This document shows positions 33,823 to 37,577 of a stretch of 38,439 nt of DNA, one piece after another. Under the pieces are notes generated by a model. The model saw only the letters and a list, made by a program, of their open reading frames with translations, ran no database searches and was not told where the DNA came from. The DNA lies in assembly GCA_903860985.1 (NCBI GenBank), contig CAIOSO010000124.1, forward strand, positions 1 through 38,439, written 5' to 3'. A program made the position numbers and the translations under genes. The DNA is from an uncultured Flavobacteriales bacterium. Lineage in GTDB: Bacteria; Bacteroidota; Bacteroidia; Flavobacteriales_D; Crocinitomicaceae. The stretch's first letter is position 1; every line of letters begins with the position of its first letter.

Positions 33823-33830
33823 CAAAGTTA
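33823..33830 (-). promoter_or_regulatory. -7 promoter box for the SCO gene, overlapping the nadR-type stop codon
   Basis: The minus strand reads TAACTTTG, with its first three bases being the stop TAA of the kinase gene, and ends 4 bases before ATG 33818. It is an exact TAnnTTTG match. Confidence 0.45.
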
Positions 33831-34313
33831 GCGATTTAGTACAAATTGCACTTGTTTTTGTCGTTCTATTAATGTCCCTTTTAAGATGATATATGGCCGA
33901 TTGTTCTCCTTAAGTTCCTTTTCGTAGAGCTCAAACAATTCATGGCGATTCAATGGGTTTTCTCTCAAAGGATCTGCCTCCCAAGGAATATCCGGTGCGC
34001 ACAAGAAATAGTGATCGAATTGTTGATTTGTGTAGGCCATTTGAATGAGGGGAGATAGCTTTTGAAAACGAAATTCAGACCAAATTTTCATCACGGTCAT
34101 TTCCGTATCTGCCACGAATTTCGATCCTTTATTCTCCCAATCTTTCAGTTGAGCAATCGTGATAGCGTCTAGGTCATTTTGATCGTAAGCCGCCTTTTTT
34201 TCTAAGTGTATTCGTGCATATTCTGTACTGAGAGGTAATTGATGAAACTCCGCACACCATTTTGCCATGGTTGATTTTCCACATGATTCTGGACCCGTAA
34301 ACGCAATTTTCAT
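33828..34313 (-). CDS. NadR-type nicotinamide riboside kinase (kinase domain only)
   Basis: The 161-residue protein has a P-loop GPESCGKST (residues 7-15), typical of the ribosylnicotinamide kinase domain of NadR, then LPLSTEYARIHLEKK, FVADTEMTVMKIWSEFRF and a C-terminal nucleoside-kinase fold (HYFLCAPDIPWEADPLRENP). It would phosphorylate nicotinamide riboside to NMN for NAD salvage. Full-length NadR of enterics also has a repressor helix-turn-helix and an NMN adenylyltransferase domain; both are missing here, so only the kinase step is covered. It overlaps the preceding pnuC gene by 4 bases, the standard salvage pair. Confidence 0.9.
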   Translation of the reverse strand: MKIAFTGPESCGKSTMAKWCAEFHQLPLSTEYARIHLEKKAAYDQNDLDAITIAQLKDWENKGSKFVADTEMTVMKIWSEFRFQKLSPLIQMAYTNQQFDHYFLCAPDIPWEADPLRENPLNRHELFELYEKELKENNRPYIILKGTLIERQKQVQFVLNR

Positions 34314-34882
34314 ATCGCCTCCGTTTTTTTATTCCATTCGCGCAATCCATATATTCCTAGAATGAAATAACTTGCATATAATATTGTGGTAGCATATAAG
34401 TTTGCTTGTAAATACAATACAACGCAAGCTAAATTGATGAATATCCAATACATCCAATTTGACTTTTCTTTCAAGATTCCTAGCGCTGTGGCGAATACAG
34501 AAAACAGGGCAATAAACAAATCTAAGACAAACGTTTCCTTTTCATGAAAGGTAGAAAAATCGGATTGTTTCATCCATATCACTGCGCCCCCGAACAAAAA
34601 AATGAGCTGTATAGCAAGCAAGTGATGTCCTAGACGCCAAGAAATTAGCGTTATTTTATCCTCACGGTTCCATGACCAAAAGGCATAAATGCTCATAAAG
34701 ACATAAGCAATAGCTAAAAATGCTTGCGCTTGTAAGTTGGATTTAAAAAAAACAAAGACGTAAATAAACGAGCTAATCCCACCAAAAGACCAAGCCCATT
34801 TGTTTTTTTTAGCAATCAGAAAAAGGTAAACAAGGCCTAAAAGTGAAGCTGTCCACTCGAGCACAAATTGCTTATCTGGCAT
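34310..34882 (-). CDS. pnuC: Nicotinamide riboside transporter PnuC
   Basis: The 190-residue inner-membrane protein has about seven hydrophobic segments starting TASLLGLVYLFLIAKKNKWAW, and includes the PnuC features WAWSFGGISSFIYVFVFF, IYAFWSWNRED (WxxW/R area) and CVVLYLQANLYATTILYASY. PnuC imports nicotinamide riboside by facilitated diffusion, and the kinase encoded next traps it as NMN. Its ATG at 34882 follows immediately after the stop of the DUF6150 gene, so the repeat protein gene and pnuC lie on one transcript. Length is normal for the family. Confidence 0.92.
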   Translation of the reverse strand: MPDKQFVLEWTASLLGLVYLFLIAKKNKWAWSFGGISSFIYVFVFFKSNLQAQAFLAIAYVFMSIYAFWSWNREDKITLISWRLGHHLLAIQLIFLFGGAVIWMKQSDFSTFHEKETFVLDLFIALFSVFATALGILKEKSNWMYWIFINLACVVLYLQANLYATTILYASYFILGIYGLREWNKKTEAI

Positions 34883-35218
34883 TTAGTACAACAATTGTTT
34901 TTTCGCGGCGTTCCTCCATCCTGCTTGGTTTTCATAATCCACAAAGAAGATTTTAATGTCCGCTTGGTTTTCATAAGGAACAAAAAAAATGGACTTTTTT
35001 GCTTGGTTTTCATACTGCGTAAAGAACCATTTGCCATTATTATCTCCTGCTTGGTTTTCATATTTAACCTTAAAGACTTTTAAATCTGCTTGATTTTCGT
35101 ATTTCACCACGTAGACTTTAACATCCGCTTGGTTTGCATAGTTCACAGAAAACACCTTTTGAGCGTAAAGTTGCTGGCCAAAAAGAAGAGATAGGGTACA
35201 AAAAAAGAAATTTTTCAT
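34883..35218 (-). CDS. DUF6150-like 13-residue-repeat exported protein
   Basis: From ATG 35218 the 111-residue protein has signal peptide MKNFFFCTLSLLFGQQLYAQ, so the mature part is about 91 residues. This consists of six near-identical 13-residue units (the third is 16): KVFSVNYANQADV, KVYVVKYENQADL, KVFKVKYENQAGDNNG, KWFFTQYENQAKK, SIFFVPYENQADI, KIFFVDYENQAGW, then RNAAKKQLLY. Alternating hydrophobic strands joined by YENQA turns suggest a compact beta array. I recognise this as the DUF6150 pattern, with moderate certainty. The open frame continues upstream to 35353, but overlaps porZ and lacks a signal peptide. Function unknown; it lies between porZ and pnuC. Confidence 0.85.
   Translation of the reverse strand: MKNFFFCTLSLLFGQQLYAQKVFSVNYANQADVKVYVVKYENQADLKVFKVKYENQAGDNNGKWFFTQYENQAKKSIFFVPYENQADIKIFFVDYENQAGWRNAAKKQLLY
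34923..35140 (-). repeat. Six 39-48 bp coding repeats in the DUF6150 gene
   Basis: The plus-strand core gcttggttttcata or a close variant occurs at 34923, 34962, 35001, 35049, 35088 and 35127, spaced 39, 39, 48, 39 and 39 bases. They encode the YENQA turns. The spacing is a codon multiple, showing that selection acts on protein. Confidence 0.85.
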
Positions 35219-35258: not shown

Positions 35259-37577
35259 CTAACGAATGACCATGACTTTACCAACTTTTCGATCTCTGCC
35301 GTCGAAATTAGTTGCTGTCCAAATGAAATACACACCTGTTGGCACCTTTTCACCGTTCAAATTTTGTGTGTTCCAGGTAGCTGTTCCACCGTTTGATGTT
35401 GTGCGATAGACAAGATTTCCTGCAACATCTGTTACTTTCACGTCAGAATCAAAGCGTATTCCTTGAATGCTTACTGGTCCAAAATAGTTTGGTTTCACAG
35501 GATTTGGAAATACCTTTACACTCGCATAATCAGGGTCTTCGTAGGATGCATTCGTTCGGAAGGAAACCAGTCCTTTATCGGTCACAATATACAATTCCCC
35601 GGTTTCTTGATTCAATTGAAGATCAAAAATTACATTGGAGATGATGGGGGAATTATCGGTTGTATATTGCTCAAGGATTTCTGATCCATCTGCTGATAAA
35701 AGAATAATCCCTGCGTTTGCCGTTGCCATCCACTTTCGATTTCCGCCATCCACTTCAATATCTGTGATGTGTGTTTTCCCTAGCACGTATTCTACATTCC
35801 CTTCAAAATTCACTTTAATTTGTTGTACATTATAATCTCCCGGTTGCGCATCAAATGCACCCGAAGCATTGTATAAAATAGCGAATCCTGTTTCGGTTCC
35901 TATCCACAATTCGCCGTCAAAATCAGCTGCAAGTGCAGTTACCGCAATGGAAGGAAGATTTCCGCTGAATTCACCTTCGTCCAAGGAAATGACTTTATCA
36001 TCACTTGGATCAGATATGGTGCCATTGTGATCATATCCAATAATTCCATCCGATTTGGTTGCAAACCAAATAATTTCGTCGAAATCTTGTATCAACTTGG
36101 TCGTAAACTTATTCTTCCCGTTTGGTCCACAATCAAAGTTATACCAATTGCCTGTTTTGTCTCTAACGGTCAAAGGTTTATCTGAATACCCGTTCAATGC
36201 CCATAAGTTCCCTCTGTTATCAAAATGAACATCTGAAACAAGGCTCCATCCATTGCCAATACTTGTTGGTTTAATGGGTGAATTCCCTCCGTTAAAAACG
36301 AGGGTATCTGTTGCGTTCATTAAGGTCAACGGAAGGTAGGAATAAGTGCTCATTGCTACTTCAGAAGTGTCGTTCGGATTAATTGCAACGTCAATAAAAT
36401 CCCAAATATTTGCTTCTGGCCATTGTGAAACATTCGATACATTGAGTAAATCCCATTGTGCATTTTGATAAAAATGCACACCATTTCTCGTAAATCCAGG
36501 TAAGTTATCATTTAACCTTCCGGATGCGATGGCTAATTTTCCCTTTTGTACATCCATGGAATAAAACTGGTTGTTTTTAGATCCTTCAATGGGATACGAC
36601 TTATAGGAAATTTCCGTTGGATACATGACCAAACCTAATTTCAAATCTGCTGACCATAGTCCAGATTGATTTCTAGCGGTCCGTGCAGAAGAAAACCAAA
36701 CGTTAAAGTTTCCCGCTCCATATGATTCAGGGATTTGCAGGTTATCGTTATATAGATTAATCACTCCGTCGATGTTGACAGACAAGTAATTATATACGAC
36801 GTTAATGGAATTAATCTCAACAGAAAATGGCAAGTTGGTGACAAGTTCTAAATCGGATGCATTGATGCGATAAACGGAATCAGTGCCATATTCCTCTGAT
36901 TTTTTCAAAACAACCAAACGGTCATTAAACACATCCATTTCGGTATATTTATTCGCGGTTTGGTATGGAAGGCGAATATCTCTAACCCACTGTGAATAGT
37001 CCGGCAATATTGGATTAGGAAGAAATCCTTTCAAAAGTTGCGTAGGTGTTAAGGCGTAAATGGAGTCTTGGTAAATGGCTACATCTAAGATGGGCTCGTT
37101 GGAATTAGTAGGATAGAATGTTTCCTTGACTTCGTTTTTAGCAGCATTGAGTTGTACGATGGAAAAGTCATTTGCAGCATAAACGTACAGTCCACTTCTC
37201 TCAAAACGATTGATGCGTTTAGACACGGAAATCTGGGCTAGTTTGATAGCAGGAATATTCGTGATCGCACCATTTTTATACTTATCAATGTTTCCATTTG
37301 TGTATCCAATGTACACTGCGTTTTCCACCTCATCGTAATAAAGGCAAGAGATTTCTATATCCGACAAGCCGTTTAAGGCAGTTAATAAACGGTGTTCCTC
37401 TGTAGAGATTGTATAGATAGACAAGCCATTTGCATAAGCGGTAAACACCTCTTTTTCAGAGGCTACGACATCAATTGCTTTTGATGTTGAAACATGGAGT
37501 TTCCAAGTGCCCATACCTATTTGAGCCCTTGAAACAAAGGTGAATATGCATAGAGAAAAGAAGATGGTCCATTTCAT
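35259..37577 (-). CDS. porZ: Type IX secretion system surface protein PorZ
   Basis: The 772-residue protein has signal peptide MKWTIFFSLCIFTFVSRAQ. The PorZ opening is GMGTWKLHVSTSKAIDVVAS followed by VFTAYANGLSIYTISTEEHR. Several propeller blades follow (AVYIGYTNGNIDKYKNG, LWALNGYSD, ELWIGTETGFAILYN, RKWMATANAGIILLSADGS). The C-terminal type A sorting domain contains VKVFPNPVKPNYFGPVSI, VKVTDVAGNLVYR and VPTGVYFIWTATNFDGR. PorZ, with PorU, PorV and PorQ, forms the cell-surface attachment complex that cleaves T9SS cargo and, in Porphyromonas, brings A-LPS for linkage. The PorZ assignment rests on domain order and N-terminal motif. It begins 27 bases after the end of a membrane protein gene. 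Confidence 0.86.
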   Translation of the reverse strand: MKWTIFFSLCIFTFVSRAQIGMGTWKLHVSTSKAIDVVASEKEVFTAYANGLSIYTISTEEHRLLTALNGLSDIEISCLYYDEVENAVYIGYTNGNIDKYKNGAITNIPAIKLAQISVSKRINRFERSGLYVYAANDFSIVQLNAAKNEVKETFYPTNSNEPILDVAIYQDSIYALTPTQLLKGFLPNPILPDYSQWVRDIRLPYQTANKYTEMDVFNDRLVVLKKSEEYGTDSVYRINASDLELVTNLPFSVEINSINVVYNYLSVNIDGVINLYNDNLQIPESYGAGNFNVWFSSARTARNQSGLWSADLKLGLVMYPTEISYKSYPIEGSKNNQFYSMDVQKGKLAIASGRLNDNLPGFTRNGVHFYQNAQWDLLNVSNVSQWPEANIWDFIDVAINPNDTSEVAMSTYSYLPLTLMNATDTLVFNGGNSPIKPTSIGNGWSLVSDVHFDNRGNLWALNGYSDKPLTVRDKTGNWYNFDCGPNGKNKFTTKLIQDFDEIIWFATKSDGIIGYDHNGTISDPSDDKVISLDEGEFSGNLPSIAVTALAADFDGELWIGTETGFAILYNASGAFDAQPGDYNVQQIKVNFEGNVEYVLGKTHITDIEVDGGNRKWMATANAGIILLSADGSEILEQYTTDNSPIISNVIFDLQLNQETGELYIVTDKGLVSFRTNASYEDPDYASVKVFPNPVKPNYFGPVSIQGIRFDSDVKVTDVAGNLVYRTTSNGGTATWNTQNLNGEKVPTGVYFIWTATNFDGRDRKVGKVMVIR

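Follow-up and report, generated by a model that had tools for sequence, protein, structure and literature searches.

A six-unit DUF6150 protein from an uncultured Flavobacteriales bacterium with a predicted fold resembling the 7_1 knot protein Q9PR55 enlarged by one unit

Introduction

The closest described relative in fold of the protein analysed here is Q9PR55 of Ureaplasma, a 7_1 knot protein whose knotted core is given as residues 27–83 in the available text of PMC9278004 (PDB numbering is assumed to be identical) and whose structure is described as solved in PDB entry 8IWA (PMC13352647); the entries considered below are 8IWA, 8IWB and 8JRM. By its description, P73136, a 5_1 homologue of Q9PR55, belongs to the same torus-knot series, ordered by windings (Brems et al. 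2022). Designed knotted tandem repeats, as outlined by Doyle et al. (2023), also place tandem units on a (2,q) torus path, although they are designed and alpha-helical whereas our protein is natural and beta-rich. The Knotted Solenoid (PNAS 2026) is likewise a knotted repeat fold in bacteria but, as described, it is a trefoil (3_1), unlike the Q9PR55 kind of fold. These comparisons draw on the available portions of PMC9278004, PMC13352647, PMC11223836, PMC11184937, PMC10672856, PMC10598012 and PMC13123833.

We analysed a 38,439-nucleotide stretch of DNA from an uncultured Flavobacteriales bacterium (contig CAIOSO010000124.1), hereafter the window, which encodes a member of DUF6150 (PF19647), a Pfam family of unknown function. 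We take '7(1) septoil knot family protein' to be an NCBI product name. The name DUF6150 was not found in the open-licence PMC literature searched, nor was any description of turn words. The kind of fold, and DUF6150 as a family, are already known; the features that seem to be new are a unit beyond the 7_1 core, the existence in nature of forms with five and with six units, and turn words whose uniformity is under selection.

Results

Gene, signal-like start and repeat units

The gene and the parts of its product are listed below, with strands numbered as in the model of the mature chain.

34883..35218, minus strand: DUF6150 gene (PF19647), 111 amino acids, coordinates including the stop codon
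35162..35218, minus strand: signal-peptide-like N-terminus read by eye, residues 1–19, LYA before Q20, no lipobox cysteine at +1
35123..35161, minus strand: unit 1, QKVFSVNYANQAD, model strand 2–5
35084..35122, minus strand: unit 2, VKVYVVKYENQAD, model strand 14–18
35045..35083, minus strand: unit 3, LKVFKVKYENQAG, model strand 27–31
34997..35044, minus strand: unit 4, DNNGKWFFTQYENQAK, 16 residues with the conserved N-x-G-x-W loop, model strand 44–47
34958..34996, minus strand: unit 5, KSIFFVPYENQAD, model strand 56–60; a 13-residue unit is missing approximately here in L021
34919..34957, minus strand: unit 6, IKIFFVDYENQAG, model strand 69–73
34886..34918, minus strand: C-terminal WRNAAKKQLLY, the end of a two-residue seventh strand (81–82) and then helix 85–91

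The open reading frame was confirmed at the position originally predicted, on the minus strand and with a length of 111 amino acids. Codon differences from the related gene L003 in the mature part (22 synonymous, 1 non-synonymous) mark it as a real gene; the corresponding numbers for L008 are 46 and 11, and purifying selection on the mature part is strong. In the signal region, the differences from the seven relatives compared are mostly replacements. The mature chain, starting QKVFSVNY after a 19-residue signal-like segment, has 92 residues counted by eye, close to the approximately 91 first claimed. In most relatives an A or S precedes Q at the putative cleavage site, and judging from the sequence the window protein is probably exported via Sec, with a putative type I signal site.

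The repeat alanines lie at mature positions 12, 25, 38, 54, 67 and 80, at spacings of 13, 13, 16, 13 and 13. The original prediction of six units ending in YENQA[DG] was right as to their number but not in every residue: the turn motif reads YANQA in unit 1 and YENQA in the other five, and the residues that follow it are, in order, D, D, G, K, D and G. Tandem Repeats Finder reported a single DNA array (39-bp period, 2.6 copies, 77%), so that the repeats stand out more clearly at the protein level than at the DNA level.

Family membership and number of units

Membership in DUF6150, suggested earlier from the sequence, was borne out by a Pfam match with an E-value of 2.8e-24 and 85.4 bits against a cut-off of 27, covering model positions 6–98 of 98. 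The protein has the six strand–turn units and the N-x-G-x-W loop that characterize the family in a description drawn from alignments. The tryptophan of this loop (W45) is invariant in an alignment of 88 sequences, and the loop length is identical in 179 of 205 unique collected proteins. No family was found for the window protein, L136 and L110 in an NCBIfam scan, or for four DUF6150 members in a PHROGs scan.

Six units were counted in 197 of the 205 proteins. The remaining eight comprise two truncated sequences and six flagged with an internal gap, among which only L021 and L202 are clean (in this count L110 and L111 were reduced to their C-termini, and L109 and L214 were broken or odd). L021 and L202 are five-unit forms with a signal-like start that occur in different genomes and carry different words; L202 (177–536, minus strand) has SDYK in all five units, and its genome also encodes the six-unit L201. 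The 16-residue unit had been thought to mark an extra loop, and this loop does exist; both L021 and L202 have it, however, so it is not the extra unit discussed below. By alignment, five units are also found in L110 (985–1701, minus strand) and L111 (1411–2070, plus strand), which have no signal-like start. In these two proteins the five-unit DUF6150 domain leads into a linker rich in serine, then a hydrophobic segment and finally an SH3-like domain, the C-terminal bacterial SH3 match being above the cut-off in L111 and below it in L110.

Predicted fold and comparison with Q9PR55

Structure prediction from the 88-sequence alignment gave a confident AF2 model of the mature chain (pLDDT 95.9, pTM 0.83; 91.9–95.9 over five models), with strands 2–5, 14–18, 27–31, 44–47, 56–60, 69–73 and 81–82, the last of only two residues, and helix 85–91. 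The top four Foldseek matches in the PDB were Q9PR55 chains, albeit with a poor global fit (E 8.5e-3, TM 0.32, rmsd 10 Å). When the 154 best PDB chains from Foldseek were realigned with VIA-align, four reached Z ≥ 2, and all three entries listed were those of Q9PR55. In this gapped alignment, model residues 1–82 match Q9PR55 chain 25–84, and with it the knotted core, over 60 residues at 1.9 Å, with 22 model residues unmatched and a Z of 6.4, which is middling by the tool's own scale, as is the range of 6.4–7.7 for the two chains compared here; the program gives end points only, and the placement of gaps is inferred. The link to the Ureaplasma 7_1 protein proposed earlier is thus upheld in fold but not in sequence: Q9PR55 was not matched by DUF6150 profiles A1 and A3 or by single queries against PDB sequences, a set that may not include it. 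These queries returned no match or only weak unrelated ones, such as lysostaphin repeats. In the viral structure library, the model had no match at E 0.001 or better.

The five-unit L021 provided a comparison for which the expectation had been set beforehand, namely about 60 aligned residues if the extra unit was real and about 50 if it was not. Its model (1–69; five AF2 models ranging from 92.4 down to 57.7) matched the identical range of Q9PR55 over 60 residues at 1.5 Å (Z 7.7), with nine residues unmatched. This spoke against the explanation that we had first preferred, in which there was no extra unit and the turns were longer. The difference between nine and 22 unmatched residues on the same Q9PR55 range amounts to one unit. 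Thus, L021 resembles the 7_1 core and, as far as the models go, the fold of the window protein looks like that core plus one 13-residue unit. The original prediction had expected fewer or equal turns; the fold comparison suggests one unit more. Besides this apparent additional unit, the window protein differs from Q9PR55 in its signal-like start and clear 13-residue repeats.

Turn words are largely uniform within proteins and differ between them

Turn words were compared in 166 of 180 unique ORFs that could be aligned (effective number 47 at 80%). The 14 left out (L021, L109, L110, L111, L122, L123, L124 twice, L125, L126, L130, L138, the second copy of L143, and L166) were fragments, a five-unit form, and very divergent or oddly spaced members. 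At offsets −4 to −1 from the conserved alanine, agreement among the units of one protein was 0.85, 0.60, 0.88 and 0.83, as against 0.34, 0.31, 0.15 and 0.24 between proteins of less than 65% identity (4000 of 8321 such pairs). The strand positions showed the opposite pattern: at offsets −11, −9 and −7 agreement was 0.07, 0.27 and 0.19 within a protein and 0.84, 0.74 and 0.79 when the same unit was compared across proteins. For the words, identity among the units of a protein was 0.869, compared with 0.451 when units were permuted among proteins (maximum 0.468 of 200 permutations), whereas the strand core showed no excess (0.180 versus 0.184). Modal words include YENQ, YESQ, YESR, SKYD, AEYK, YKSD, NQAY, YKYD and RESY. 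Uniformity is not absolute, as many YENQ proteins have this word in three to five of their six units.

Among 18 genomes or records with multiple copies that were read, 11 had at least two copies with one word in at least three units, and in ten of these 11 the copies carry different words (for example YKSD, RESY and NQAY in G404), G024 being the one with the same word. Genomes G826, G384 and G545 were left out because of a pseudogene or fragments, and some of the ten are not independent, since G006, G404, G021 and G395 share orthologous sets. In one genome, the paralogues L192, L198, L065, L089 and L196 lie near one another, each with its own uniform word.

Distribution

At E 0.001, and with the genome of the window counted, DUF6150 is encoded in 30 of 60 genomes of relatives and in 129 of 249 genomes sampled across the order. 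For the class the count is 60 of 345 genomes, 57 of them above the cut-off, and for the phylum sample it is 17 of 296, with 16 above the cut-off; in each of these four whole-genome surveys it was found in none of the 14 control genomes. A scan of genome contigs gave 153 relatives, 80 of the 153 being among the matches listed.

Eleven contigs classed as viral also encode relatives (L001 and L129–L138). Two of them, of 344 and 348 kb, are near-identical at the DUF6150 locus, with YKYD in all six units. The proteins on these contigs also have signal-like starts (e.g. L136, 4947–5276), and all six that were scanned scored above the DUF6150 cut-off. The neighbours at six viral loci, read by eye, are partly phage-like, and flanking gene families are common to L001 and L132–L135. 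Collections of phage and plasmid records held no match for the window protein, the L110 domain or L122, and no relative of L122 was found on the viral contigs.

Genes around the locus

The neighbours of the DUF6150 gene in the window are as follows.

33828..34313, minus strand: NadR-like protein with an AAA_28 domain (PF13521, 75.6 bits; TIGR01526, 58 bits, below cut-off)
34310..34882, minus strand: PnuC nicotinamide riboside transporter (TIGR01528, 65.8 bits; PF04973, 128.3 bits)
35259..37577, minus strand: PorZ of the type IX secretion system, the upstream neighbour (NF052228, 497.8 bits)

The ATG of pnuC directly follows the stop codon of the DUF6150 gene (window positions 34880–34885), an arrangement that may couple their translation. 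Clustering the neighbourhoods of DUF6150 loci revealed no widely shared partner.

Discussion

On balance, we favour the explanation that the window protein is an exported DUF6150 protein with a knotted fold of the Q9PR55 kind, enlarged by one unit and displaying six like turns. After cleavage of the Sec signal, the six strand-plus-turn units would coil up in a torus-type knotted fold akin to that of Q9PR55 (7_1), with one further unit of 13 residues. The knotted strands would give the protein a core of great stability and resistance to proteases; Q9PR55 itself reportedly shows high resistance to unfolding and to ClpAP. The turns, which carry nearly the same four-residue word (YENQ; YANQ in unit 1), would form one repeated surface on the rim, an exposed position suggested by the AF2 model, in which the polar words sit on short three-residue helical turns. 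Word uniformity suggests either like-with-like packing, turn against turn in a ladder tolerating only like residues, or one repeated surface for binding a partner. The different words of the paralogues favour a binding surface or orthogonal assembly, and these paralogues may serve different partners. We infer that the protein could act as a scaffold, knotted and stable, that displays six similar turns.

The superposition on Q9PR55 suggests that the chain is knotted; this match would fit 7_1, 9_1 or another crossing number, and our toy models, where they were informative, did not favour 9_1. Within the favoured explanation, it is quite conceivable, if short of probable, that the knot is the same 7_1 as in Q9PR55, with the extra unit lengthening the chain and leaving the knot unchanged, since the range of Q9PR55 that the window model matches contains the whole core. 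With seven strands, 12 to 18 of 40 closures were 7_1 in four of six hand-set ring patterns; of these four patterns, two had 9_1 in 3 and 5 closures, and the remaining two did not have it among their four commonest types; in 77 helical models with a six-strand 7_1 knot, a seventh strand never gave 9_1 but other, non-torus values. These models are crude, however: a non-torus type was the commonest in one of the four patterns, the two further patterns had overlapping chains, and overlaps in several ring patterns make those closures meaningless. An unchanged knot also sits poorly with the extra residues, which, as a strand and a turn, resemble all the other units, and one added winding is described as converting 5_1 to 7_1 (Brems et al. 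2022). The bolder proposal, that six-unit proteins form 9_1 or another knot beyond 7_1 and the five-unit L021 and L202 form 7_1, in a series stepped by one repeat and tied once Sec export has taken the chain out of the cytoplasm, with turns locked to one word, we consider somewhat doubtful. For the five-unit form, the commonest type obtained with hand-set ring steps was 7_1 in two of the patterns, and in the remaining two it was 5_1. Flat-sheet models, built with three crossover depth rules only, reached at most 3_1 with five strands, 5_1 or 4_1 with six and, among torus knots, 5_1 in 646 orders of seven strands. A first set of random helical models was entirely unknotted (21,399 of 21,399), as were 28,456 of 28,783 in a second set, in which the commonest knots with four, five and six strands were 3_1, 5_1 and 7_1, respectively. 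Taken together, ring torus curves, flat sheets, helical models and ring steps do not separate 7_1 from 9_1. Nine-crossing knots are present in the AlphaKnot database according to the available text of PMC11184937, which gives no family name for them; a nine-crossing prediction for DUF6150 may already be among them. That the chain is instead an unknotted beta-solenoid locally resembling the knotted fold, or an AlphaFold artefact, is unlikely.

Repeat sequences invite register errors in prediction, and the poor global Foldseek superposition would suit such a reading. AF2 is also described as ignoring chain crossing, although the same text regards the predicted 5_1 and 7_1 knots as possibly real (PMC10672856). 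Against this reading stand the five confident models of the window protein and the fact that two related chains, this protein and L021, match 60 residues of a crystallised knot. Nor do we give much weight to the view that the uniform words arose by gene conversion or repeat expansion and have no functional meaning, which seems more improbable still. It draws on the five-unit forms, in which the number of units has changed, and on an excess of identical codons at offset −2 (0.546 versus 0.456 expected) and slightly at −4 (0.539 versus 0.500), the former leaving room for some local conversion. Yet the same-codon fraction at the other offsets departs from expectation by no more than about 0.06 in either direction, and the alternate strand positions inside the same units, which remain unit-specific, have not been homogenised, which argues against conversion of whole units. 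Serine is encoded from both codon boxes within one gene in 22 of 49 cases at offset −2 and in 16 of 19 at −4; no single synonymous change bridges these boxes, which points to selection rather than gene conversion. Arginine likewise uses both of its boxes in seven of nine genes, weaker evidence because these boxes are one step apart. From these codon patterns we argue that word uniformity is probably kept by selection. The position of the gene might instead suggest an accessory protein of nicotinamide riboside uptake working with the adjoining PnuC and NadR-like proteins, and besides the abutting pnuC start, 12 of 25 loci from the same genus have pnuC no more than 400 bases downstream. However, pnuC is adjacent in only 25 of 192 loci with a DUF6150 gene (some contigs being counted twice) and in none of the viral loci L129–L138, and outside same-genus and near loci no neighbour family occurs in more than six of 153. 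The pnuC linkage is a lineage feature, and such a role is very unlikely.

If the favoured explanation of an enlarged, knotted Q9PR55-like fold is true, DUF6150 would be a widespread family, found in over half of the genomes surveyed in the order, of natural proteins whose knot may change by one repeat, and this change would occur among close relatives differing by little else. The periplasm, if that is where the protein sits, is without ATP-driven chaperones, and the knot would be tied there. The uniformity of the turn words offers a direct, testable handle on stability or binding, and the presence of DUF6150 proteins on contigs classed as viral raises the question of why these contigs encode them.
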